Positions 1,096 through 54,477 of a stretch of DNA of 64,000 nucleotides are shown piece after piece. The translations under genes were made by a program, and so were the position numbers. Source of the DNA: Microcaldota archaeon (lineage in GTDB: Archaea > Micrarchaeota > Micrarchaeia > Micrarchaeales > Micrarchaeaceae); contig JAJZVQ010000002.1 of NCBI GenBank assembly GCA_021845575.1, positions 1 to 64,000 on the forward strand. The letters are read 5' to 3'. Position 1 is the first letter of the stretch. Each line of letters starts with the position of its first letter. The notes under the pieces are model-generated. The model saw only the letters and a list, made by a program, of their open reading frames with translations, searched no databases and was not told the DNA's origin.

Positions 1096-1185
1096 TGGGC
1101 CTGAGGAGAGTTGAACTCCTTTCTCCAGCGTGTAAAGCTTATGCGCGGTTATCCGCTTGGCATCGTACCGATGGACCACAGGCCC
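1096..1185 (-). tRNA. tRNA-Val (TAC anticodon) with a 19-nt intron in the anticodon stem
   Basis: Acceptor arms GGGCCTG and CAGGCCC pair perfectly with discriminator A. The T-arm is AGGAG-TTCAACT-CTCCT. The anticodon arm closes only after removing 19 nt: CCA + GC gives stem CCAGC/GCTGG around loop TTTACAC, so the anticodon is TAC. The intron therefore sits in the anticodon stem, about position 29/30 rather than the canonical 37/38. The D stem is short, as in some Glu/Val-like tRNAs. No CCA is encoded. The gene lies just 3' of the aminotransferase gene. Confidence 0.88.
1139..1157 (-). other. tRNA-Val intron (19 nt, noncanonical position)
   Basis: The intron contains a perfect GCGG-ATAA-CCGC hairpin, flanked by exon/intron bases that can pair (ATGC with GCAT). 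This leaves a bulge on one side only, a relaxed bulge-helix-loop rather than a strict bulge-helix-bulge. The boundary is ambiguous by one base because an A is repeated at both ends. Removal restores a perfect five-pair anticodon stem. Confidence 0.8.
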
Positions 1186-3873: not shown

Positions 3874-4914
3874 ATGCAGATTGATTCGGGCTTTATAGAG
3901 AGCGTATTTTCATACGCTTATTCCTCCGTGTCTAATTATATGAATAATACGGCGGCTTATGCTGTCTCTTTGGTAATCGCATTTATCGTGTTTGCAATAC
4001 TTCTCAGTTTGCTGGTCGTGCTGTTTGTTTACCTTTTCGGCTGGGGGGAAAGAAAAATAATGGCAAGAATCCAGTCAAGACATGGCCCCACATATGTTGG
4101 AAAATTCGGCATACTGCAGAATATGGCGGATGTGGTGAAACTGCTTTCAAAAGAGCACATAATTCCGGACCAGTCGGACAAACCCCTTTTTCAGATGGTG
4201 CTTCCGATAATTTACGCTCTTTTTATGATGATCTTGGCTTTTATTCCGTTCACGGGCGGCTTTGTGGGGATTGGAAGCACGATAAGCCTGCTTGTTATTT
4301 TCGCGCTTCTTTCCTTTTCGCCGTTGTTGCTGTTTCTGGCGGGATGGACGAGCGGAAACAAATTTGGTTCTATAAGCGCCCAGAGGTCCGTAATGGTAAT
4401 GGTGAGCTATGAAATACCTATGCTTCTTGTTGTTGTGGCAGTCGCCATGCTGGCGCACAGTTTCAGCCTTATAAACATAGTCAACGCACAAGGGACCCTC
4501 TGGTTTGCCATATTGATGCCAATCGGATTTATTGTGTTTTTTATCACTATGCTCGCGGAGCTTGAAAGGCCGCCATTCGATGTCAGGGAAGCGGACAACG
4601 AACTTATCGCAGGCTGGCTTACTGACGTGAGCGCACCTTATTACAGCCTTGCCTTGTTTCTCGATTACACCAGAATGTTTGTGGGCACTTTGCTAATATC
4701 GATATTATTTTTGGGTGGGTGGGGTGGCCCTTCATTTTTGCCCGCCTTTGCCTGGATTTTTATAAAGGTAATCGCATTGAGCGTATTCATCATAATAATA
4801 AGGGCTACTACTGTCAGAATGAAAATTGACAGAATATTGAGGACAGGTTGGACATATATGATTGCGCTGTCGGTATTAAATTTGATTGCGACATTTTTGA
4901 TTTTTGCCAAGTGA
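3874..4914 (+). CDS. nuoH: NADH-quinone oxidoreductase subunit H (complex I)
   Basis: A 346-aa membrane subunit with about eight hydrophobic segments. Signature blocks are GERKIMARIQSRHGP after the first membrane helix and AELERPPFDVREADNELIAGW, the quinone-cavity loop. NuoH links the peripheral arm to the proton-pumping arm and forms much of the quinone site. First gene of a seven-gene operon transcribed away from nth; the short upstream gap is AT-rich with a possible TATA stretch (AAATAAATTAAATT). No nuoA-G lies upstream here. Confidence 0.95.
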   Translation: MQIDSGFIESVFSYAYSSVSNYMNNTAAYAVSLVIAFIVFAILLSLLVVLFVYLFGWGERKIMARIQSRHGPTYVGKFGILQNMADVVKLLSKEHIIPDQSDKPLFQMVLPIIYALFMMILAFIPFTGGFVGIGSTISLLVIFALLSFSPLLLFLAGWTSGNKFGSISAQRSVMVMVSYEIPMLLVVVAVAMLAHSFSLINIVNAQGTLWFAILMPIGFIVFFITMLAELERPPFDVREADNELIAGWLTDVSAPYYSLALFLDYTRMFVGTLLISILFLGGWGGPSFLPAFAWIFIKVIALSVFIIIIRATTVRMKIDRILRTGWTYMIALSVLNLIATFLIFAK

Positions 4915-6137: not shown

Positions 6138-7892
6138 ATGTTTGCGTTATTTGCTGTTTTGCCCGTTCTGATTTCTTCGCTGTTGATACTCGCTATAAGG
6201 AAAAACCGGGCGGCGAAATACATAGCTTTGGCTGGCAGCATAATCTCCCTTGCGTTTGCGGTGATTGTTTTCTTGACACCATCCGCCCAATATTCGGTGG
6301 ACTGGTTTTCGGCATCAAATCTCGTGTTTCATATAACTATTGTGACCTATGCCCTGAATAAAATCCTCCTGCTCCTGGTAGCTGCAATAACTCCATTAAT
6401 TTTTACATATTCTATCGGTTTTATGGATGTGCAAAGGGAGCAGAGCAGGTTTTATACCGAGATCGGCATATTCGCGGCGGCGATGATGCTTTTTGCGATA
6501 TCAGGAAATCTTATAACAATGTTTATAGCCTGGGAGGTGCTGGGCATTACGAGTTATCTCCTTATAGGTTTTTGGTATAATAAACAGAAACCCCCATTGG
6601 CAGCAAGAAAGTCTATAACCACTATCATAATAGGGGACATATTCTTCTTGATGGCCATAGTCGTAATACTCTCTGCTTACGGCACCACAAATATCGCATC
6701 GCTCATATCTACGGCGCAAAACAGCCATATTCAGCTGCCGCTTGATGCTTCCCTTATCTTCATACTGGTTGCAGTGTTTACCAAATCTGCGCAATTCCCG
6801 TTCCATGAATGGCTTTCAGATGCAATGGAGGGCCCTACGCCCGTTTCCGCATTCCTGCATTCTTCTACTATGGTAAAGGCGGGAGTATTTCTGGTAATGG
6901 TGCTGCTGCCATTGTACGCAATGGCGAATTTGGAATGGATATTGCTGGTTATAGGGATTGCCAGTGCGACAGTGGCGATAATGAACGCGCTTTCGGAACA
7001 CCACATCAAAAAAATTCTGGCTTATTCCACCATAGAGGATTTGTCGTTGATGTTGATAGCTTTGGGGTTGAATAACCTTCTTGCAGCCCTTCTGCTTTTC
7101 ATAGTCCAGACTTTTTATAAAGCCCTTTTGTTTATGGGCGCGGGTTACGTGATGAAAGCCAATGACGGAGAAGAGGATATATTCAAGGTATACAATATAA
7201 AGAAAAATAAAATGTTGTTTGCAACCGTGGTGATAGGCGTATTGTCGCTTGCGGGCGTGGCTCCTTTTGGAGGTTTCTTTGCAAAGGCTTCGCTTGATTC
7301 TTCTGCAACAGACATATATGTTTATGCGGCTCTGCTTGCATTTGACTTGCTGTCGAGCATGTATATATTTAGATGGCTGATTGTGCCTTCAGGCAAATCC
7401 GATAAAAACATGCAGTATAAAGCGCCGAGAAGCATGGCAATCCCTATGGCAATACTTGCCGCATTTACCGCCATTAGCGGAATTTCGTTTTTTGCGCTGG
7501 GCATGAATTCTGCACAGCCGTTAAACATCCTTGATATGGTTATAGAAAGCGGTTTAGTCATTTCAGGATTTATAATATCGTATCTGTTTTATGCAAAGGG
7601 CTTATTGCCTAACGTATCCTTATACTCCCTAAAATACAGAATCATGCACAACAGCTTCTTCTTGAATATCTTTTATTATAAAATTGCAGGATTTTTCGAG
7701 GAATTGGGGGAACAGTTCGATTTATTCGATCATTCGGTTAATAGACTGTTCAACATGTGCGGCGGAACCTTGGTGCGCTCTGGAAATTTTATTAGAAAGG
7801 TTGAAAACGGGAATGTGAATGTTTACGCGGTGATTTTCGTGTTCGGAATCGTCGCATTACTGGCGGTATTTGAGATTGTTGCGGTGCTATGA
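6138..7892 (+). CDS. nuoL: NADH-quinone oxidoreductase subunit L (antiporter-like)
   Basis: A 584-aa multi-spanning proton-pumping subunit. The core shows FIAWEVLGITSYLLIGFWY (conserved Glu of the pump channel), AQFPFHEWLSDAMEGPTPVSAFLHSSTMVKAG spread over residues 215-250 (with the channel Lys and His), and a later helix set. It is somewhat shorter than typical bacterial NuoL (about 610), probably in the lateral-helix region. I take the ATG at 6138, five bases after the nuoK stop, rather than one 39 bases upstream that would overlap nuoK. Overlaps nuoM by 4 bases. Confidence 0.93.
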   Translation: MFALFAVLPVLISSLLILAIRKNRAAKYIALAGSIISLAFAVIVFLTPSAQYSVDWFSASNLVFHITIVTYALNKILLLLVAAITPLIFTYSIGFMDVQREQSRFYTEIGIFAAAMMLFAISGNLITMFIAWEVLGITSYLLIGFWYNKQKPPLAARKSITTIIIGDIFFLMAIVVILSAYGTTNIASLISTAQNSHIQLPLDASLIFILVAVFTKSAQFPFHEWLSDAMEGPTPVSAFLHSSTMVKAGVFLVMVLLPLYAMANLEWILLVIGIASATVAIMNALSEHHIKKILAYSTIEDLSLMLIALGLNNLLAALLLFIVQTFYKALLFMGAGYVMKANDGEEDIFKVYNIKKNKMLFATVVIGVLSLAGVAPFGGFFAKASLDSSATDIYVYAALLAFDLLSSMYIFRWLIVPSGKSDKNMQYKAPRSMAIPMAILAAFTAISGISFFALGMNSAQPLNILDMVIESGLVISGFIISYLFYAKGLLPNVSLYSLKYRIMHNSFFLNIFYYKIAGFFEELGEQFDLFDHSVNRLFNMCGGTLVRSGNFIRKVENGNVNVYAVIFVFGIVALLAVFEIVAVL

Positions 7893-9277
7893 TGTTTCCG
7901 ATATTCTTGGCGTTGTTTGGCTTGCTTGTTGCGGCGCTTGCGGCAGGCATTGCTTTTAGAGAATTTACTAAAAAGATAGCCATCGTAGCATCTGGTTTTG
8001 TATTGGCTGCGATGACTGCTGTCATGTTAATCATGTTCTTTCTTCACATATCCATCTCGCAGAACTATATGTATATACCTCAATTAAATATGGGCCTCTC
8101 TTTCAGCATCAATCCTATATCCATCGTCCTTTTAATGATGTCCAGCATAGTGATATTTGTATCTGCTTTGATATCGAAGGATGGCGGGGCTTCGCTGCTG
8201 ACCATCATATTTGAAATTTCGGCATTAGGTTTATTTGCTTCATCCAACTTGCTCTTGTTTTATATATTTTGGGATATAGGGGTAATTGCGATATTTTTCA
8301 TAATAAACGTTTTTGGCTCTGCGGAGAGGAAAGGGGCGGCATTCAAGTTCCTCGTATACTCTATAGCGGCAAGTTCGCTGCTTCTCGCAGGCATACTCCT
8401 GATTTATTCTTATCTGCCCATTCATTCGTTTAATATTCAGTACATAATTCAAAACAGCCAATCCATACCTGAATTCGTACAATGGCTGATTTTTGTTTTC
8501 CTGGCCGCGGCTTTTATAATAAAAATGCCGATATTCCCCTTCCATTCGTGGATTGGTGGTGCTTATACTGAAGCACCGACCGGAGGTAGCATGCTTATTT
8601 CTGGCGTATTGTCTAAATACGGGGCGTATGGGCTGCTTCTATTGTTCCTCATGATGCCGATTGCACACCAGTTGGCAGGGTATATCGCGATTCTGGCCGG
8701 ATTTTCGGCTTTTTATGCCATATTCGTGGCAATCGGACAGATTGATATTAAAATGATGTTTGCATATCTGAGCATGGCTGAGATGGCGATAATAACCTTG
8801 GGGATAACGTCATTTACGGCACTTGGGGAGTCTGGCGCGCTTTACGGGATGCTTGCATACGGATTGGGAATGGCGTTGCTGTTCATGATTGCAGGTTCGG
8901 TGGAATACATGTTCAATTCGCGAAATATTTCAATAATAAAAGGTATAATCGAAAATTCAGTATCAACGACGTATTCCTTCCTTCTTGGGGCATTTTCTGC
9001 GACAGGCGTTCCATTAACTGCGGGATTTATTGCGGACCTGCTTATATTTATAGGGGCGTTCGAAGGATTCGGATTTTACGGGTTAATACCATTGGCTGCG
9101 ATTGTGTTGATTGGCGCATATCTTTATTTTGTGGCAAGCAAATCTTTTCTGTCGTCGCACAAACATACTGAAGCAGCCTTTTTAATAGAAAAGAAAGTGA
9201 AGGTAGGCTATGCAATACTTTTGTTTTTTATATTCTTTTTTGGAGTGTTCCCTTTTATATTTTTAAATGTTATATGA
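7889..9277 (+). CDS. nuoM: NADH-quinone oxidoreductase subunit M (antiporter-like)
   Basis: A 462-aa hydrophobic subunit with NuoM-type pump motifs: MPIFPFHSWIGGAYTEAPTG and the following SGVLSKYGAYGLL segment, where family members read PDAHTEAPTAGS and a conserved Lys lies in the discontinuous helix. The N-terminal pump position usually held by Glu appears as Asp (LFYIFWDIGVIAIFF), a conservative change worth checking by alignment. Starts in the ATGA overlap with nuoL. Confidence 0.93.
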   Translation: MMFPIFLALFGLLVAALAAGIAFREFTKKIAIVASGFVLAAMTAVMLIMFFLHISISQNYMYIPQLNMGLSFSINPISIVLLMMSSIVIFVSALISKDGGASLLTIIFEISALGLFASSNLLLFYIFWDIGVIAIFFIINVFGSAERKGAAFKFLVYSIAASSLLLAGILLIYSYLPIHSFNIQYIIQNSQSIPEFVQWLIFVFLAAAFIIKMPIFPFHSWIGGAYTEAPTGGSMLISGVLSKYGAYGLLLLFLMMPIAHQLAGYIAILAGFSAFYAIFVAIGQIDIKMMFAYLSMAEMAIITLGITSFTALGESGALYGMLAYGLGMALLFMIAGSVEYMFNSRNISIIKGIIENSVSTTYSFLLGAFSATGVPLTAGFIADLLIFIGAFEGFGFYGLIPLAAIVLIGAYLYFVASKSFLSSHKHTEAAFLIEKKVKVGYAILLFFIFFFGVFPFIFLNVI

Positions 9278-9287
9278 GTTGATCCTT

Positions 9288-10685
9288 ATGTTTTATGCTC
9301 CTGATATCGTAATATTCCTTGCAATTATTCTTATGGCTTCGGGGATTTGCGGAATGTTTTATAGAAAAAGGACTGCTTTGTTTTTGATTAATACGCTCAT
9401 ATTTTTGGCCATAGTCCTGATATCAGGGTTTCTTCTATTTTCTCAAACAAACACAATAGTCTTTGGGATATTCCACGTATTTCCATTCTCTGTGTTTTTC
9501 CTGACGCTATTTACTGCGGCAATCATGCTTGTTAATACCCTGTCCTACAAATACTCTAAAAATTTCGATGTTCTCTCTATGCTGATAAGCCTGTCGTATT
9601 TTGGAATGGTGTGCGTCGTCTCGTCAGTATCCTTCATTGCAATGGTTGTAGGTCTTGAAATTATCTCGTTGACTACTGCATTCATGATCCTAGTTGATGG
9701 GAAACGAAGAATAGAGTCTGCCATAAAATTGTTTATACTGGGCGCAATAGCAATCGCCACGATTACATTTGCTCTTGCAATCCTCTTTGCTTATGACCCG
9801 TCGCTGTCAATTCCTATCTCTTCATACCCTGTGATTTTAAACATTTCTGGAAATCCTTATTTCCTTGTGCTTGCACTGCTGTTGTTCGGAGTGGGGATCT
9901 CTTTTGAGGCGTCCTTATTTCCGTTCAATCTATGGGTTCCTGACGTTTACACAGGAGCGCCAACATATATCACCGCGTTGATGGCAGGAATAAACAAGAA
10001 GGTTGCGTTTGCTGCGATAATCCTGATTTTTTTTGCATTTGCAGTAAACTACTCTAAGATTTTTTCACTGCTGTTCCTTTTGCTTTCTGTATTTACAATG
10101 TTTTTTGGAAATATAATGGCGTCAGTACAAAAAAATGTAAAAAGGCTTTTTGCTTATTCGTCGATATCGCAAGCCGGTTACATAACAATAGGGATTGCTG
10201 TTGCCACCTCCTTTGGGATTGAGGCAAGCATCTTCCAGATTGTGGCGCATGTTTTTATGATAATAGGCGCGTTCACGATAGTGCTCTGGCTTGAATTTAA
10301 GGAAATAAACACTATCGAGGATTACGAGGGGTTGTATTACAGGAATAGGTATTCTGCCATAGCGCTAACAATCCTTATGCTTTCGATGGCCGGTATTCCT
10401 CCCCTAATGGGATTTTATGGCAAGTTCCTGCTATTCTCTAGCGCAGTAGAAGGAAATATGATGCTGCTCGCAATCATAGGAATACTCAATAGTTTTATAT
10501 CAATTTATTATTATGGAAAATTGATGAATTCGATTTACACGAAAAAAGAGCATAAAGCCCTTTTTGTTGACAGGTTTACTCTGCTGGTTATAACATTGTG
10601 CGTTGCGGTTGTGATAATTTTTGGTATTTATCCGACTCCGGTAATGGATGCGGCAGGCATTGCAGTAAAATCTATTCTTTTTTAG
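9288..10685 (+). CDS. nuoN: NADH-quinone oxidoreductase subunit N (antiporter-like)
   Basis: A 465-aa multi-spanning subunit; the VGLEIISLTTAFMILV helix carries the pump Glu, SLFPFNLWVPDVYTGAPT is the NuoN signature, and FAYSSISQAGYITIGIA the following helix. The start chosen is the ATG at 9288 just after the nuoM stop, with GTTGATC upstream; an in-frame ATG at 9267 would overlap nuoM by 11 bases. Last gene of the operon, converging on geranylgeranyl reductase with 1 base between stops. Confidence 0.93.
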   Translation: MFYAPDIVIFLAIILMASGICGMFYRKRTALFLINTLIFLAIVLISGFLLFSQTNTIVFGIFHVFPFSVFFLTLFTAAIMLVNTLSYKYSKNFDVLSMLISLSYFGMVCVVSSVSFIAMVVGLEIISLTTAFMILVDGKRRIESAIKLFILGAIAIATITFALAILFAYDPSLSIPISSYPVILNISGNPYFLVLALLLFGVGISFEASLFPFNLWVPDVYTGAPTYITALMAGINKKVAFAAIILIFFAFAVNYSKIFSLLFLLLSVFTMFFGNIMASVQKNVKRLFAYSSISQAGYITIGIAVATSFGIEASIFQIVAHVFMIIGAFTIVLWLEFKEINTIEDYEGLYYRNRYSAIALTILMLSMAGIPPLMGFYGKFLLFSSAVEGNMMLLAIIGILNSFISIYYYGKLMNSIYTKKEHKALFVDRFTLLVITLCVAVVIIFGIYPTPVMDAAGIAVKSILF

Positions 10686-10686
10686 G

Positions 10687-11802
10687 TTATTGATTTTTGA
10701 CAAGATTTCTGAAAAAAAATTTTTTGATCATTTCTTTCGGGCTGTCCATATCCCCGTATTTGCTGAAAAATTTTTCGCCTTTAAGTACCTTTATTGTTTT
10801 TAGAAGCATGTCCATTTGGTTATTCCCTAACAATGAATAGTAATTATGGATGAGTTTATGGATGTACAGATCTGCACCAAATTTTCTTCTCCATTCTGTT
10901 TCGTATATCCTTAGATCTTTTCCGTATGTTATATTTTCCCATATCGCATCTGCCGCTGTTTTCGCGCACTTGATTCCGAATATTATCCCGCCTCCCGTAG
11001 TCGCTTTTACCTGGCCGGCCGCATCCCCCACTAACAGCACATTCTTTATGACTGTTTTTTCCCTTGTATTTATAGGTATTAAGCTTCCTTGCCCATTGAT
11101 GATCTCGTTTTCACCTATAATATTAGAGATATCCGGGTTTTCTATAAACTTATCGAATGTGTTTTTGCTATTCTTTTTAAATTTCGAATCGACCCCGACC
11201 CCTATTTCTATAATTGAATCTGAATGGGGCGCAACCCAGCCGAAAAAACGGTTTGTTATGTTATTATCAAAATAAAGATCTACAACATTTTTGTCTTTTA
11301 CTTGCTTAACTGTGCACTTAGCTTTGTATGTAAGGATATAATCAGAAATATTTGGAAAATTAAAGGCGTTGGCAACTGTTGAAACGGCACCGTCTGCCCC
11401 GACTATTACCTTGTATTCTTTCTGCAATTCTTTTATCTCTTTTTTATCTATCTTCCGGCCCAATGAAATCTTCACTCCTTCCGCCTCTGCTTCCTTCTTG
11501 CATATCTCGGAAAGGGCGGCTCTGTCAAGTATAAATGCTTTTGTCTCTTTTGCCTTTATTCTCAATTCTTCATTCTTTGAATGTATGACTGCACCGTCAA
11601 GCGCATTCACAATGGCAGTGTTGTAATTGATTCCGGTGCTATCCAATCCTTTTTTTGACAAGATCCCTGAAGCCTTGTCTGCATTATCAGAAATCTTTCT
11701 TTTCATGTCGCATACTTCTACCTCCATTCCGCGTTTTGCCATTTCCTTGGCCAGAGCTAAACCGACGACTCCTGCGCCTATAACACATATATCTTTAGAC
11801 AT
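10687..11802 (-). CDS. Geranylgeranyl reductase family protein (archaeal lipid saturation)
   Basis: A 371-aa FAD-dependent reductase. The N-terminal dinucleotide-binding motif is VIGAGVVGLALAKEMAKRG; the second FAD motif is LLVGDAAGQVKATTGGGIIFG, characteristic of digeranylgeranylglycerophospholipid reductases, which saturate the isoprenoid chains of archaeal lipids. The central RFFGWVAPHSDSIIEIGVG fits the family substrate region. Start chosen at MSKDICVIG, eight residues inside the longest reading. The membrane lipid theme connects with the UbiA-type gene at 53.6 kb and perhaps with dxr nearby. Other isoprenoid substrates are possible. Confidence 0.88.
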   Translation of the reverse strand: MSKDICVIGAGVVGLALAKEMAKRGMEVEVCDMKRKISDNADKASGILSKKGLDSTGINYNTAIVNALDGAVIHSKNEELRIKAKETKAFILDRAALSEICKKEAEAEGVKISLGRKIDKKEIKELQKEYKVIVGADGAVSTVANAFNFPNISDYILTYKAKCTVKQVKDKNVVDLYFDNNITNRFFGWVAPHSDSIIEIGVGVDSKFKKNSKNTFDKFIENPDISNIIGENEIINGQGSLIPINTREKTVIKNVLLVGDAAGQVKATTGGGIIFGIKCAKTAADAIWENITYGKDLRIYETEWRRKFGADLYIHKLIHNYYSLLGNNQMDMLLKTIKVLKGEKFFSKYGDMDSPKEMIKKFFFRNLVKNQ

Positions 11803-11940
11803 ACTGCATCGCTTTCTCTGCTGCAAAATGCATATCCTCTATTTTTAATTAACCTTGAATGGCACCTAGTTATAAATCAATGGAAACATACACCTTTATA
11901 AAGATTGTTTTTATATATAAATATATTTGGTGATTAAACG

Positions 11941-13582: not shown

Positions 13583-14707
13583 ATGAAAAATATTGTCATT
13601 CTTGGGAGCACAGGATCTATTGGAAAACAGGCACTCGACGTGGTAAGGGCAAACAGGGATAAATTCAAGGTTGTTGGGCTTGCTGGAGGAGAAAATGTTG
13701 AAGCCCTTTTGCAACAGGTAAAGGAATTTTCGCCTATTTATGTAAACTCGCCCAATATAAAAGAAAAGTCATGGAATAACGCAAAGGTAGTTTCCTTGGA
13801 AGAGATGGCAGTAGTGCCTGAAGCGGATCTTGTATTGATATCTACAGTAGGCTCTGTGGGGCTCGTTCCGACTTTAGAGGCAATAAGAAGCAAAAAGGAG
13901 GTCGCTCTTGCAAATAAGGAGGTATTGATAATGGCCGGAGAGCTTGTAATGGCGGAGGCAAAGAAATACAACGTGCAGATTCTTCCGGTAGACAGCGAGC
14001 ATAATGCGGTATGGCAATGCCTTATGGGAGATTGCACGTTTGGCTCTGGCTCTGTTTCCGGTCCTGTGAAGAGGATTATTATCACTGCATCAGGAGGTGC
14101 ATTTCGCGACTGGCCTGTAGAAAAGCTTGATTCCGTTACTCCTGAAGAGGCGCTTGCGCATCCAACATGGAGCATGGGAAAAAAGATAACCATAGATTCT
14201 GCCACATTGATGAACAAGGGATTTGAGGTAATTGAAGCGAGATGGCTGTTCGGCATGGATTACGACAGGATCAGCGTGTTGCTGCACAGGGAAAGCATAA
14301 TCCACGCGATGGCCGAGTTTGCCGATGGTTCGTTCAAAGCTGTCTTGAGCTATCCGGATATGCATATTCCGATACAGCATGCACTTTCCTATCCGGAACG
14401 TTTTGGTGTTGTATGGAAACAGCTTGATCTGGAAAATTTGGAAAAGCTATCGTTTGCAAAAATGAATTATGGTAGGTATCCATGCTTCAATCTTGCGATG
14501 GAAGCGGCAAAGAAAGAAGGAAGTTATACGGCAGTATTGAACGCTGCGGATGATGTGGCGGTGCACAAATTCCTCGATGGCAAGATAAAGTTTACAGACA
14601 TAGAGAAAATAGTAAGGAAGGTGCTGGATGAGCACAAACCTATACCCCACCCGAGCATAGAAGACGTAATTAGAATAGATGAGGAAGTTAGGAATTCGCT
14701 GAAGTGA
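13583..14707 (+). CDS. dxr: 1-deoxy-D-xylulose 5-phosphate reductoisomerase
   Basis: A full-length (374 aa) bacterial-type DXR, which converts DXP to 2-C-methyl-D-erythritol 4-phosphate with NADPH. All hallmarks are intact: NADPH loop GSTGSIG (8-14), ALANKE (108-113), metal ligands in PVDSEHNAVWQ (D137, E139), GGAFR (171-175), the flexible loop HPTWSMGKKITIDSATL (193-209) and NKGFEVIEARWLF with the third metal ligand E218. Archaea normally make isoprenoids by mevalonate, so the gene is unexpected. No other MEP gene is in this window. A single gene, reading divergently from the glycosyltransferase, with GTGGTATA before the ATG. Confidence 0.95.
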   Translation: MKNIVILGSTGSIGKQALDVVRANRDKFKVVGLAGGENVEALLQQVKEFSPIYVNSPNIKEKSWNNAKVVSLEEMAVVPEADLVLISTVGSVGLVPTLEAIRSKKEVALANKEVLIMAGELVMAEAKKYNVQILPVDSEHNAVWQCLMGDCTFGSGSVSGPVKRIIITASGGAFRDWPVEKLDSVTPEEALAHPTWSMGKKITIDSATLMNKGFEVIEARWLFGMDYDRISVLLHRESIIHAMAEFADGSFKAVLSYPDMHIPIQHALSYPERFGVVWKQLDLENLEKLSFAKMNYGRYPCFNLAMEAAKKEGSYTAVLNAADDVAVHKFLDGKIKFTDIEKIVRKVLDEHKPIPHPSIEDVIRIDEEVRNSLK

Positions 14708-16261: not shown

Positions 16262-17119
16262 ATGGATATAAATAATGGCTTTGAAAAATTTTTTTCTGGG
16301 AGATGGATTGCCGGTGCGCACATAGAAGACGCCTTGGAAGTCGCTAAAAAGTTTAATTCTAAGAACATAACTGCGATAATAAACTATTTGGGGGAAGCAA
16401 TAAGGGATAAGGATAAGATTGAGGCAACTGTAGATCGTTACTTATTTATTATAAGCAAAATAAAGGAAAACAATCTTAATGCCGAAATCTCACTCAAGCC
16501 CACGCAGCTAGGGCTTGGTTTTGATGAAAAACTTCTTTTTGATTCGTATGCAAAGATAGTGGGCGAAGCTAGGAGAAACAATATTTTTGTGTGGTTGGAT
16601 ATGGAGGAAAATAACTTTGTGGATGACACCATAAAATTATACTACTCGCAAATAAACAGCAAAAACACCGGAATATGCATACAGGCTTATCTTAAAAGAA
16701 GTATTATTGACGTAAAAGATATAACAAAAAAGGATGGAATAATAAGACTTGTAAAAGGAGCGTATAAAGAATCTAGCGATGTGGCGTTTCAGGATATGGA
16801 GGAGATTACAAAAAATTATGTTGAATTGATGCGTTACCTGTTTGAAAATTCTAAAAGATTTATGATTGCAACGCATGATTTATCGATTATCGAATTGGCA
16901 AAAAATCTTAATAAAATATATAACAGGACAATAGAATATGCGATGTTGAATGGAATAAGAAATAGATACGCGGTAAGGCTTGCAAAAGAAGGCAAAAATG
17001 TTTACATTTATGTTCCTTTTGGGGAGCAATGGACAAAATACGCGTATAGAAGATTAAGGGAGGGAGGGCATGCTTTATTAATTTTAAAGTCGTTATTTGA
17101 AAAGCAGAGTATTGATTAG
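16262..17119 (+). CDS. Proline dehydrogenase
   Basis: A 285-aa monofunctional proline dehydrogenase (FAD, TIM barrel) oxidising proline to pyrroline-5-carboxylate and feeding electrons to quinone. Barrel motifs in order are ISLKPTQLGLGFD, VWLDMEEN, CIQAYLKRS, IRLVKGAYKE, IATHDLS, EYAMLNGIR and YVPFGEQWTKYAYRRLREG, the last with the paired arginines that bind the proline carboxylate. Length is typical of small bacterial PRODH. proS follows after 9 bases, probably co-transcribed; no pyrroline-5-carboxylate dehydrogenase is present here. Confidence 0.92.
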   Translation: MDINNGFEKFFSGRWIAGAHIEDALEVAKKFNSKNITAIINYLGEAIRDKDKIEATVDRYLFIISKIKENNLNAEISLKPTQLGLGFDEKLLFDSYAKIVGEARRNNIFVWLDMEENNFVDDTIKLYYSQINSKNTGICIQAYLKRSIIDVKDITKKDGIIRLVKGAYKESSDVAFQDMEEITKNYVELMRYLFENSKRFMIATHDLSIIELAKNLNKIYNRTIEYAMLNGIRNRYAVRLAKEGKNVYIYVPFGEQWTKYAYRRLREGGHALLILKSLFEKQSID

Positions 17120-26314: not shown

Positions 26315-27112
26315 TTAAAAGCGCATAAAAGAAACAGGATCTTGCGTATTTACTTTATCTGATTGCTTAGAGGATATAGTTTTTTCGGATTTGAAGATTT
26401 TCTTTTCTTCGTACATTCTTTTGTCTGCAATTTTGAACATTTTTTCTGTAATCTCTTTAATTGTTTTTTCATCATATACCGAATCATTTATATCATGTAA
26501 AACTTCATGAACTGTGGAATAACCTGCTGAAGCACTAACCTTGATATCCGGTAAATTTATGTTTTTTTCTGCACACATTTTTTGAAATTCGTGATGTAAT
26601 TGCCTTTTAATCCTTTGTGCAACAATATGCGATTCCTTCATGTTTGCGTTGTCTATTATTACAACAAATTCGTCGCCACCTATCCTATATCCGTCAGTGT
26701 CCCCTTCTCTAGTATACTTTCTGATGGATTCTGAAAGGGAGTATAAGTATGTATCTCCGGCATCATGGCCGTACTTATCATTTATTTCTTTTAGGTTGTT
26801 GAGATCTAAAACGATTATGGCAGGGCCTTTGAGACCTATTACTCCATTCTGTTTCTCCCTTATATACCTAGAAACACTTGAGGATATATCTTTATTAAAT
26901 TTCTTTTTATTCCCTAATTTTGTTGAATCCTCGATGAGGCATTCCTTCCTAAGAATTTTGATAATTTCTTCATCCTCTTTGATTATCTCTAAAAGATCTA
27001 AAATTTGTTCGTTTAATGTGGCATTTGGCTTGGTTGTGACTTTTTCAATTTCTTTTTTTGTTGAATCCTCTATTTGGTTAGATGTTGTTGCTTTACTAAA
27101 TGTTGTATTCAT
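26315..27112 (-). CDS. GGDEF-domain protein (putative diguanylate cyclase)
   Basis: A 265-aa soluble protein: a helical N-terminus (about 1-60, coiled-coil-like) and a GGDEF domain (about 61-230). The active-site signature is exact, YRIGGDEFVVI (GGDEF at 145-149), and the metal/substrate loop reads VLDLNNLKEINDKYGHDAGD. The family makes cyclic di-GMP from two GTP. No canonical RxxD inhibitory site at the usual spacing and no sensor or membrane domain. GGDEF proteins are rare in archaea. It could instead be a c-di-GMP or other nucleotide enzyme with altered product. Divergent from the PD-(D/E)XK-like gene. Confidence 0.92.
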   Translation of the reverse strand: MNTTFSKATTSNQIEDSTKKEIEKVTTKPNATLNEQILDLLEIIKEDEEIIKILRKECLIEDSTKLGNKKKFNKDISSSVSRYIREKQNGVIGLKGPAIIVLDLNNLKEINDKYGHDAGDTYLYSLSESIRKYTREGDTDGYRIGGDEFVVIIDNANMKESHIVAQRIKRQLHHEFQKMCAEKNINLPDIKVSASAGYSTVHEVLHDINDSVYDEKTIKEITEKMFKIADKRMYEEKKIFKSEKTISSKQSDKVNTQDPVSFMRF

Positions 27113-48937: not shown

Positions 48938-49936
48938 TTATCCTATATTTATGCTTGCCCTATCAATCTCTTTATTTTTGGCAATTTCAACTATCTGGCT
49001 TTTTTCTTGCAATCTTAATTTATAAATAAGCAGCGTTGCACCATTCACCGCATTAACATAATCTGCCTTTTCAAATGCAGAAGCACCTTTATAATTAACA
49101 TCCTCAATCACTCCAGATATCCCGCGATTATAACTAGCAATTACTAAAGAAACCATGTCCTGAAGTTTTGGATCAGGTTGCACCCCTTCCAACAAATCTG
49201 AAAAATATTTAATTATACTGTTTTTGCCATCATTACCAATTAATTTTGTTACTGCCTCATTTAAAATTGCAGTGCCTGCGCCGATATTCATTTTAGGATT
49301 AAATACATTTTCCCAATTAAGATTATACTTTTCAAAATGTATTGGATTTATCTGCATAAGCCCTGCTGCGCCAACATCTGATTTTTCATAATTTTTACCC
49401 GCAGATTCAATCATAATAATGCCACAGATAAGTTCTGGAGGGAGATTATACTCTTTTGCGATAGGTTTTACCTCCTCCCAGAATTTTTCTATGACGCCGC
49501 TTGCAATTTCTACATTAACATTTTTACTGTATTTGCCGTATTTTGCTATTATTTCATGGATCGGAATAGTTTTTGGTGCGTACATTAAAACGAAATTATT
49601 TTGTTTAACTCTCTGTCCTCCCCATAACTCTTTATTCATTTTAGTTGAATAAACAAAAGGCAATAAGGATATGTGATTTTTATTCTGTTCAACCAATCGA
49701 TAAGTCAACCTTTTCTTATTTTCAATATGCTTATATCCCTTGTTTAATAAAATAGTGGCTGCAGGTTTTCCTGATTCTGATACTGATACTGGTTTTGAAA
49801 TATTCGGTGCCGTCAAAGAAGCCACGCCAACAAATGCCGTAAGCGCAACTATACCTAAGGCTGCCTTGACTTTTTTAACCTTCTCTATGGCCTTTAAATT
49901 TTTCCTTGTTTTTTCTATGTCTATCGATTTATCCAC
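48938..49936 (-). CDS. Secreted lytic transglycosylase (SLT/lysozyme-like)
   Basis: A 332-aa protein with an N-terminal signal (KKVKAALGIVALTAFVGVASL) and a C-terminal SLT domain (about 150-310). The catalytic Glu is in CGIIMIESAGK (E177), followed by GAAGLMQINP and the far part LVIASYNRGISGV, the three SLT signatures. The enzyme family cleaves the glycan backbone of bacterial peptidoglycan. The middle (about 60-150) is of unknown type. The start is GTG at 49936; there is no in-frame ATG until residue 100. Very unexpected in an archaeon. Confidence 0.92.
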   Translation of the reverse strand: MDKSIDIEKTRKNLKAIEKVKKVKAALGIVALTAFVGVASLTAPNISKPVSVSESGKPAATILLNKGYKHIENKKRLTYRLVEQNKNHISLLPFVYSTKMNKELWGGQRVKQNNFVLMYAPKTIPIHEIIAKYGKYSKNVNVEIASGVIEKFWEEVKPIAKEYNLPPELICGIIMIESAGKNYEKSDVGAAGLMQINPIHFEKYNLNWENVFNPKMNIGAGTAILNEAVTKLIGNDGKNSIIKYFSDLLEGVQPDPKLQDMVSLVIASYNRGISGVIEDVNYKGASAFEKADYVNAVNGATLLIYKLRLQEKSQIVEIAKNKEIDRASINIG

Positions 49937-53595: not shown

Positions 53596-54477
53596 ATGTT
53601 TTCTTTAAAGGCGTTTCTGAAACTTACAAGGATAGAACACAGTATAATGCTGGTAATAGCAGTAATAGCAGGAGAGCTTATAGCAAACGGCGCAAGGCTT
53701 CCTAACACTGTGCCATTTCTACTAAGCCTAGTTACGCCTATTTTCATAAGTATGGGTTCATTCGCAATAAATGATTATTTTGATGTGGAGCTCGACACGG
53801 AGAATATGAGATTTGACAGGCCACTCGTTTCCAAGGCAATGAGCAAAAGAAGTGCCCTAGTAATATCCTATGTATCTTTCTCCTTAGGGGTAATCGCCGC
53901 CTTTTTTATAAACATTCCCGCATTCATAATTGCGTTCATATTCGCCTTTTTGGCGGCATTCTATAGCTACAAGCTCAAAGAAACCTTGCTGATTGGAAAT
54001 GTGTATGTGGCATTTTCCATGGCGATACCTTTCATATTTGGTAACTATGTGGTTTCATATGTAATAAATCCAAATGTTCTGATAATATCGGTGATAATAC
54101 TTTCAAGCGGTCTTGCAAGGGAAATACATGGCATGATAAGAGATTTCAAAGGAGACAGGAAAATACGAGACTTGAAAAGTGTGCCTTATTATATAGGGAT
54201 AAAAGAATCTTCCTTAGTGGCATTCGGGCTTTATATAGTGGCAATATTATTGAGTATTTTCATGTTTTTTTTCCTCCCTCCTTTTCACTCCAATCTCTTC
54301 TACCTTTTTGCGATAGCAATTGTTGATGCTGTACTCATTTATGTGAATATCGGCTATTTGTCGCTAAAAGGGATAAAAAACAGGAAAAAAATGTTCAAAT
54401 TGTCGCGAAATCTGAGTCTTGCTGCAATGAGCGCCGCGTTGATAATATTCCTTCTTTCAAATTTTATTTACATATAA
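53596..54477 (+). CDS. UbiA-family prenyltransferase (DGGGP synthase-like)
   Basis: A 293-aa membrane enzyme with eight or nine hydrophobic helices. The two Asp-rich motifs are NDYFDVELDTENMRFDRPL and IRDFKGDRKIRDLKSVPY, as in (S)-2,3-di-O-geranylgeranylglyceryl phosphate synthase, which adds the second chain of archaeal lipids. Single gene between polB and nrdJ. Other UbiA roles, such as quinone synthesis, are the alternatives. Confidence 0.85.
   Translation: MFSLKAFLKLTRIEHSIMLVIAVIAGELIANGARLPNTVPFLLSLVTPIFISMGSFAINDYFDVELDTENMRFDRPLVSKAMSKRSALVISYVSFSLGVIAAFFINIPAFIIAFIFAFLAAFYSYKLKETLLIGNVYVAFSMAIPFIFGNYVVSYVINPNVLIISVIILSSGLAREIHGMIRDFKGDRKIRDLKSVPYYIGIKESSLVAFGLYIVAILLSIFMFFFLPPFHSNLFYLFAIAIVDAVLIYVNIGYLSLKGIKNRKKMFKLSRNLSLAAMSAALIIFLLSNFIYI

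Follow-up and report, generated by a model that had tools for sequence, protein, structure and literature searches.

The MEP pathway is described as almost absent in archaea (PMC11052028). MEP genes have been reported in DPANN (PMC10936187), among them Woesearchaeota (PMC8204110), and PMC8421398 lists MEP genes, dxs included, among the genes gained in Woesearchaeota. For Micrarchaeota, PMC12892359 calls the pathway complete in three orders and ascribes most of the MEP genes there, with the exception of dxs, to horizontal acquisition. In bacteria, 181 species were found to lack only Dxs; 172 of them are left without explanation, and five have both shunt enzymes (PMC10663253). In Rhodospirillum rubrum and R. 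palustris, the MTA-isoprenoid shunt (PMC5893883, PMC4958253) leads to DXP through MtnP, MtnA, a RuBisCO-like protein (RLP) of the DeepYkr clade, and a cupin (PMC5893883). According to PMC5893883, the Photo-clade RLP2 of R. palustris has no detectable activity on 5-methylthioribulose 1-phosphate, and its function is left open.

The archaeal locus analysed here, like those of Woesearchaeota and Micrarchaeota, is a case of bacterial MEP genes acquired by DPANN. It differs in that dxs is reported as gained in the former (PMC8421398) and the pathway as complete in the latter (PMC12892359), whereas dxs is absent from all 18 dxr-bearing genomes of the order studied here. The possession of MEP genes without Dxs is shared with the Dxs-less bacteria of PMC10663253; however, the present case differs in that the organisms are archaea, all dxr genomes of one order are concerned, YjbQ co-occurs, and ispD, ispE, and ispF are missing in some genomes. 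A bacterial dxr in an archaeon is not new in itself. For the order-wide absence of dxs and the link with YjbQ, no paper was found among open-access ones searched by title, the beginning of the abstract, and term counts. We propose that the dxr gene of the window makes a working DXR feeding an MEP-type isoprenoid pathway without DXS, and that YjbQ takes part in the supply of DXP; the probability of this reading is roughly 50%.

The window, that is, the whole stretch of 64,000 nucleotides analysed, belongs to a contig of 64,940 bases in an assembly (G000) of 779,283 bases in 48 contigs, which is 94% complete with an estimated contamination of 0.02. The dxr gene is an uninterrupted ORF from ATG to the stop codon and encodes 374 aa. 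The protein matches the NCBIfam model TIGR00243 (Dxr) at model positions 1–379 of 389 with 469.8 bits (E 6e-141), the curated cut-off being 315.7 bits. Solved DXRs align with it nearly end to end; the best is 6mh4 (340 bits, E 1e-100), and 1k5h gives 306 bits. The GSTGSIG motif begins at residue 8, PVDSEHN with D137 and E139 at 135, HPTWSMGKK at 193, and MNKGFEVIEAR with E218 at 210; we take these to be the NADPH loop, the two Asp/Glu metal sites, and the flexible loop over the active site. The full set of catalytic residues named in an earlier note on this DNA is therefore present at the named positions. In passing the equivalog cut-off and keeping these residues, the protein resembles bacterial type I DXRs. 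It is the single dxr match in a profile search of the whole assembly. In the Methanocaldococcus jannaschii control, the N-terminal domain model PF02670 is over its cut-off and the full-length TIGR00243 is not, so a PF02670 domain alone is no proof of DXR.

Table 1. Features of the window and MEP genes found on other contigs of the same assembly (C, contig).
Feature	Position	Strand	Evidence
tRNA	1096-1185		Rfam model, 37.9 bits; not found by ARAGORN
Complex I-type subunit NADHdh (NuoH)	3874-4914		
Complex I-type subunit, NuoM-type	7889-9277		264.1 vs. 263.8 bits
Complex I-type subunit, NuoN-type	9267-10685		under cut-off
Geranylgeranyl reductase family protein (downstream isoprenoid/lipid enzyme)	10687-11826	-	TIGR02032, 161.6 bits vs. 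158.8
dxr, type I 1-deoxy-D-xylulose 5-phosphate reductoisomerase	13583-14707	+	TIGR00243, solved DXRs, catalytic residues
Proline dehydrogenase	16262-17119	+	PF01619, 104 bits; 1.5 kb from dxr
GGDEF (diguanylate cyclase) domain protein	26315-27112		84 bits vs. 23.8
Lytic transglycosylase (SLT) domain protein	48938-49936		
UbiA-family prenyltransferase, candidate DGGGP synthase	53596-54477	+	PF01040, 122 bits vs. 34.2
ispG	C7:5596-6633		486 bits
ispH	C32:14081-14935		272 bits
ispD	C32:1908-2540		233 bits vs. 181

The dxr gene is flanked by a glycosyltransferase gene on one side and by an ORF without family matches on the other, with gaps of 111 and 151 bases. The earlier note described the surroundings as otherwise archaeal, and deoxyhypusine synthase, a protein of the Rad51/RadA family, a factor of the EF-G/EF-2 family, ribosomal protein S7, and tRNA-splicing endonuclease were indeed found in the window. 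As for the lipid genes that it saw nearby, the geranylgeranyl reductase stands as a member of its family, but the DGGGP synthase could be confirmed only as a UbiA-family protein, 39 kb from dxr. Thus, dxr is a real, intact gene set in archaeal sequence. A chimeric contig or a dxr brought in as a binning contaminant is very unlikely, close to negligible. The G+C content of dxr (0.449) is somewhat higher than that of the window (0.371); however, the RadA gene of the same window reaches 0.462, dxr is a lone gene closely flanked by others on one 65-kb contig, ispG, ispH, and ispD lie on two further contigs, and the estimated contamination is low. The window of this archaeal genome of 0.78 Mb also encodes Complex I-type subunits, a GGDEF domain protein, and a lytic transglycosylase domain protein. 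Proteins of the lytic transglycosylase type that may act on bacterial walls have been noted in DPANN (PMC8204110).

Matches to dxr, this genome included, were found in 10 of the 60 near genomes and in 25 of the 301 genomes of the phylum. In 23 of the latter they are over the cut-off; the two others are G022, where the gene is a piece, and G139 (314.4 of 315.7 bits). The phylum is probably Micrarchaeota, for which MEP genes are reported in several orders (PMC12892359). Eighteen dxr genomes belong to the order, ten to the family of the window and eight to another family, and seven lie outside it (G135, G139, G160, G161, G280, G281, and G288). Bacterial DXRs for comparison came from ten loci found in one GTDB scan with six short peptide patterns of the query, so that a closer donor may be missed; the nearest of them, with 60% identity, is encoded by a Chloroflexi MAG, in which the dxr neighbourhood, as read from the ORFs, is an ordinary uppS-cdsA-dxr-rseP.

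A careful phylogeny of 34 DXRs places the window protein in a clade with that of G236 from the same family and the Chloroflexi protein (100/100), and ten other DXRs of the order form a separate clade (100/100). G011, G019, and G034 group together (94/89), the backbone is poorly supported (49/0), and G006 and G047 fall in no supported group. The partial G022 DXR (95 aa) and a short G034 fragment were left out, and the longer G034 fragment (323 aa) was used. Monophyly of the 17 DXRs of the order was rejected in a topology test (p-AU 4.6e-5). The IspG and IspH proteins of G000 are likewise separated from their counterparts in the order's other MEP genomes in quick trees with long branches, of which the IspG tree had one bacterial row and the IspH tree had none and omitted one G022 IspH fragment. 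According to the tree and the distribution, the window dxr is an acquired gene, and the DXRs of the order are not of one origin. This agrees with the earlier note, which had offered an acquired enzyme of bacterial type as one possibility and had called for a tree to find the donor: among the few bacterial DXRs compared, the window protein is Chloroflexi-like. A gene common and vertical in the archaeal clade, which the note had named as the case against it, is ruled out by the sparse distribution and the split tree. A proline dehydrogenase homologue, which in the window lies near dxr (Table 1), directly follows ispG in G043 and G218 and is about 3.8 kb from ispG in G224. This neighbourhood may hint that the window locus is an old MEP locus, and that the foreign dxr may have replaced an older one rather than founded it.

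The set of MEP genes in G000 is partial, as the earlier note had thought possible. The search that it proposed was made with profiles on whole assemblies for dxs, ispD to ispH, and, of the mevalonate genes, HMG-CoA reductase. It revealed ispD, ispG, and ispH (Table 1), no match over the cut-off for dxs, no HMG-CoA reductase, and no match for ispE or ispF in an assembly in which a gap is possible at 94% completeness. G000 shares ispD, ispG, and ispH with the bacterial MEP pathway but differs from it in the missing ispE and ispF, in the lack of dxs common to its order, and in the spread of the genes over three contigs. Ten of the 60 near genomes have ispG over the cut-off and are called MEP genomes below (G000, G006, G011, G015, G019, G022, G034, G043, G047, and G053). 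All of them except G022, with only a piece of the gene at a contig end, also have dxr over the cut-off; ispH is present in nine, being absent from G019 and in pieces in G022. HMG-CoA reductase is found in none of the MEP genomes vs. 29 of the 50 others (Fisher p 0.0009, each genome being counted as independent). The genes for the middle steps are patchy: ispD is over the cut-off in four MEP genomes, ispE matches (104–178 bits, one over the cut-off) occur in five, and ispF in four, all three being over or near the cut-off only in G043 and G053. In G006, G011, G015, and G034, dxr, ispG, and ispH are accompanied by none of these three genes, save for weak generic ispD matches. G031, a congener of G006, has ispD, ispE (under the cut-off), and ispF and none of the other MEP genes.

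Among the 301 genomes of the phylum, dxs is over the cut-off in nine. It was detected in none of the 18 dxr genomes inside the order vs. all seven dxr genomes found elsewhere in the class; in G280 and G281, dxs adjoins dxr and other MEP genes. G162 and G289, which are 54% and 61% complete, have dxs without a dxr match. At a threshold of E 1e-40, 107 of the 301 genomes have some match to the dxs model, and the 18 dxr genomes of the order are not among them. The search thus works in this phylum, since dxs was found in every dxr genome outside the order, and the lack of dxs characterises the order's dxr genomes as a whole rather than one gappy MAG. Partial matches to the dxs model reach E 7e-67 at 224 bits, far under the cut-off of 466 bits; by their position, they are probably split transketolases and E1 subunits. 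A split dxs in G000 was also considered and rejected: with a DXS profile using three of nine sequences, one of them short, the only matches were two ORFs of contig C46, read as E1 alpha and beta, and one ORF of contig C26, read as a 2-oxoacid oxidoreductase.

Clustering of neighbouring genes revealed YjbQ (UPF0047; PF01894, TIGR00149 with a cut-off of 67.75 bits), a family graded 'hypoth_equivalog' in NCBIfam, as a recurrent neighbour of dxr, ispG, and ispH in the order. It is present in 15 of the 60 near genomes, namely in all ten MEP genomes and in five of the 50 others (Fisher p 4e-8, genomes taken as independent). Nine MEP genomes have two or three matches and G053 has one, in a long protein; the five other genomes have a single match each. 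In the seven dxr stretches (6–16 kb) taken from the seven dxs-bearing genomes, no YjbQ was found. The family also occurs in 10 of 14 control genomes of bacteria and archaea: M. jannaschii, Haloferax, Sulfolobus, and Methanosarcina, which have HMG-CoA reductase, and E. coli, B. subtilis, and other bacteria, which have dxs. YjbQ must therefore have a wider role and is no general mark of a dxs-less pathway. No isoprenoid or RLP role of YjbQ was found in the open-access literature searched by title, the beginning of the abstract, and term counts.

The order dxr-yjbQ-yjbQ-ispH-ispG on one strand can be noted in G043, G047, and G218, with 1.2 kb between dxr and the pair in the last. The pair lies beside ispG and/or ispH in G011, G019, and G034 and elsewhere in G006. 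In G053, G208, and G209, a fused two-domain form is located one gene from ispG. A single protein of 391–419 aa with a C-terminal YjbQ domain is encoded by these three genomes and by G015, as assigned by Pfam for G053 and G015 and by clustering for G208 and G209; the G015 protein is under the TIGR00149 cut-off (33.7) and over that of Pfam. The N-terminal half weakly matches the YjbQ profile (hhalign probability 92%, four sequences), and judging by their sequences these proteins are the YjbQ pair in fused form. In an alignment examined by eye, in which the G051 row of three added non-MEP rows was ignored, one member of each of seven split pairs keeps a motif of the D-x-N-G-K-S-H type and has lost the W of G-x-W-Q; in the other, G-x-W-Q is retained and the former motif is largely gone. 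Such complementary loss suggests that the split pair may be a heteromer with a shared active site.

The two YjbQ proteins of G000, encoded on contigs C45 and C23, exceed the cut-off of the family (137.7 and 117.6 bits) and are of the undegenerated type, unlike the split pairs. They thus agree with the known YjbQ/UPF0047 family, from which the relatives differ by split or fused pairs with complementary motif loss. One of the two genes adjoins that of a UbiE-type methyltransferase, and a polyprenyl synthase follows one gene on. A relative of 6-phosphogluconate dehydrogenase (NAD-type, TIGR00872) is encoded within about 4.5 kb of YjbQ in seven genomes, including G000 (L166 12674-13594 on C23, 330 vs. 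297 bits).

In G015, G022, G043, and G047, a further copy of YjbQ adjoins an RLP. MtnA is encoded beside them in G015, G043, and G047, with 414, 309, and 289 bits vs. a TIGR00512 cut-off of 279; the same proteins score 148–166 bits against the ribose-1,5-bisphosphate isomerase model, vs. a cut-off of 314. MtnP accompanies them in G043 and G047 (292 and 283 bits vs. a TIGR01694 cut-off of 275). The G047 RLP gene (L180 4010-5516, G047:C3) is split over two frames, which indicates a sequencing error or a pseudogene. The RLPs of the relatives are far below the RuBisCO III and MtnW cut-offs. The nearest solved chains to the G022 RLP are 1tel/1ykw and 2qyg (507 and 485 bits), and the next gives 201 bits. 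We take 1tel/1ykw to be the RLP of C. tepidum and 2qyg to be RLP2 of R. palustris, both of the Photo clade. By its nearest solved chains, the G022 RLP would thus belong to the Photo clade and be set apart from DeepYkr. The three intact archaeal RLPs and the RLP of Thiodictyon syntrophicum are 50–54% identical. The RLP-linked YjbQs have a common N-(A/T)-H-(S/A)-H motif, with N a few residues on where most others have G. In T. syntrophicum, plasmid pTs485 (L208 8558-10293) carries idi-yjbQ-RLP, with yjbQ and RLP overlapping by four bases, within a photosynthesis gene cluster; phytoene synthase and desaturase genes come next on the other strand. This position beside carotenoid genes points to a function in isoprenoid synthesis for YjbQ and the RLP, each an orphan family.

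RLP and MtnA were sought among the MEP genomes in 91% of G000 and in the fetched stretches of G015, G022, G043, and G047; neither was found in the 711 of 779 kb of G000 covered. G000 does encode an MtnP on contig C17 (264 aa, matching PF01048 in a Pfam scan), which is 53% identical to the G043 MtnP, itself over TIGR01694. As a reading of G000 itself, the MTA-isoprenoid shunt thus finds no support in the 91% of the genome covered. Viral contigs gave no RLP.

The relatives resemble R. rubrum and R. palustris in carrying MtnP, MtnA, and an RLP. They differ from the shunt as described in PMC5893883 by an RLP of the Photo instead of the DeepYkr type and by YjbQ beside the RLP, where R. palustris has a cupin; in addition, there is no dxs as the main supply, and the shunt is not complete in the examined part of G000. 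In some relatives, a 5-substituted ribulose 1-phosphate would arise from 5'-methylthioadenosine or 5'-deoxyadenosine through MtnP and MtnA, and a Photo-clade RLP might isomerise it to a 1-substituted xylulose 5-phosphate. If 5'-deoxyadenosine were the start, 1,3-isomerisation of 5-deoxyribulose 1-phosphate would, by analogy with the chemistry of the known shunt, give DXP directly. YjbQ could assist or remove the methylthio group in place of the cupin of the shunt, and DXR would then convert DXP to MEP. MEP pathway activity and a DXP supply by a non-DXS route involving YjbQ are what we infer from these patterns. Such a route would account for the retention of DXR, IspG, and IspH in genomes that lack DXS, and for the position of YjbQ, RLP, MtnA, and MtnP beside isoprenoid genes or each other. 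For G000 itself, only the YjbQ part of the proposal would apply as a source of DXP, MtnA and RLP not having been found in the 91% of the genome covered.

Several points speak against this proposal. The absence of ispE and ispF from G000, and of ispD, ispE, and ispF from G006, G011, G015, and G034, leaves the middle of the pathway unexplained too. The wide occurrence of YjbQ in control genomes with HMG-CoA reductase or dxs also counts against it. Against the shunt part stand the lack of detectable activity of the R. palustris Photo RLP2 on 5-methylthioribulose 1-phosphate (PMC5893883) and the small supply that MTA or 5'-deoxyadenosine would offer for a main lipid precursor; for G000, only MtnP of that part was found in the 91% covered.

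A different view is that the archaeon, as an episymbiont with a partial pathway, receives DXP or some later intermediate from its host or a partner cell. The small genome (779 kb) and the patchiness of ispD, ispE, and ispF, all present in only two of the ten MEP genomes, fit this, as do the 21 of the 60 near genomes that have neither HMG-CoA reductase nor dxr/ispG. However, nine of the ten MEP genomes retain dxr, ispG, and ispH as a set if the pieces in G022 are counted (G019 lacks ispH), although an imported late intermediate would make this unnecessary, and the YjbQ link would be left without explanation. We also know of no transport of these phosphorylated intermediates, and on balance we regard host supply as unlikely, though worth keeping in mind. 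The decay of the pathway, with dxr, ispD, ispG, and ispH as relics or DXR in a shifted role, would account for the missing dxs, ispE, and ispF, but each of these four genes is full-length and exceeds its cut-off, the catalytic residues of DXR are kept, and the origin of DXR, IspG, and IspH in G000, different from that in most relatives, suggests uptake and not decay. This makes decay quite improbable.

DXP could also be made by pyruvate dehydrogenase E1, the closest of the TPP enzymes encoded, as it is by mutant AceE in E. coli; AceE, RibB, and YajO are given as dxs bypasses in PMC10663253. The two neighbouring C46 ORFs read as E1 alpha and beta are the best dxs-model matches of G000. Such matches, however, are equally frequent in genomes without the pathway (44 of 50 vs. 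9 of 10 MEP genomes), and the MEP genome G019, 89% complete, has none at all, so E1 has only a slim chance of being the source. The chance is slighter still that the pathway is canonical and its missing genes are hidden by gaps. The 94% completeness and the 48 contigs leave room for gaps, and ispE and ispF are neighbours or near each other in G043, G047, and G053, so that one gap could hide both. Yet the contrast in dxs between the dxr genomes inside and outside the order would not be explained, and ispD of G000 is not beside ispE or ispF; another ORF separates it from the start of the contig, at a distance of 1.8 kb.

The reading preferred here, a DXS-independent supply of DXP involving YjbQ, has a bolder form, which we offer tentatively and consider rather doubtful: YjbQ may be the missing partner of DXS-less isoprenoid synthesis, acting as a heteromeric pair in the order, together with a Photo RLP in part of that order and in purple bacteria, and yielding DXP from a pentose or a 5'-deoxynucleoside by-product. 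Whatever the route, claims of a complete MEP pathway in DPANN need to be checked for a true dxs, because matches well under the cut-off can have very low E-values. By gene presence, absence, and order, one archaeal order ties together the Dxs-less MEP pathway (PMC10663253), the Photo RLP (PMC5893883), and YjbQ. If the bolder form were true, YjbQ and the Photo RLP, both of them families long without an assigned role, would share one function, and the MEP pathway would have a second natural entry.
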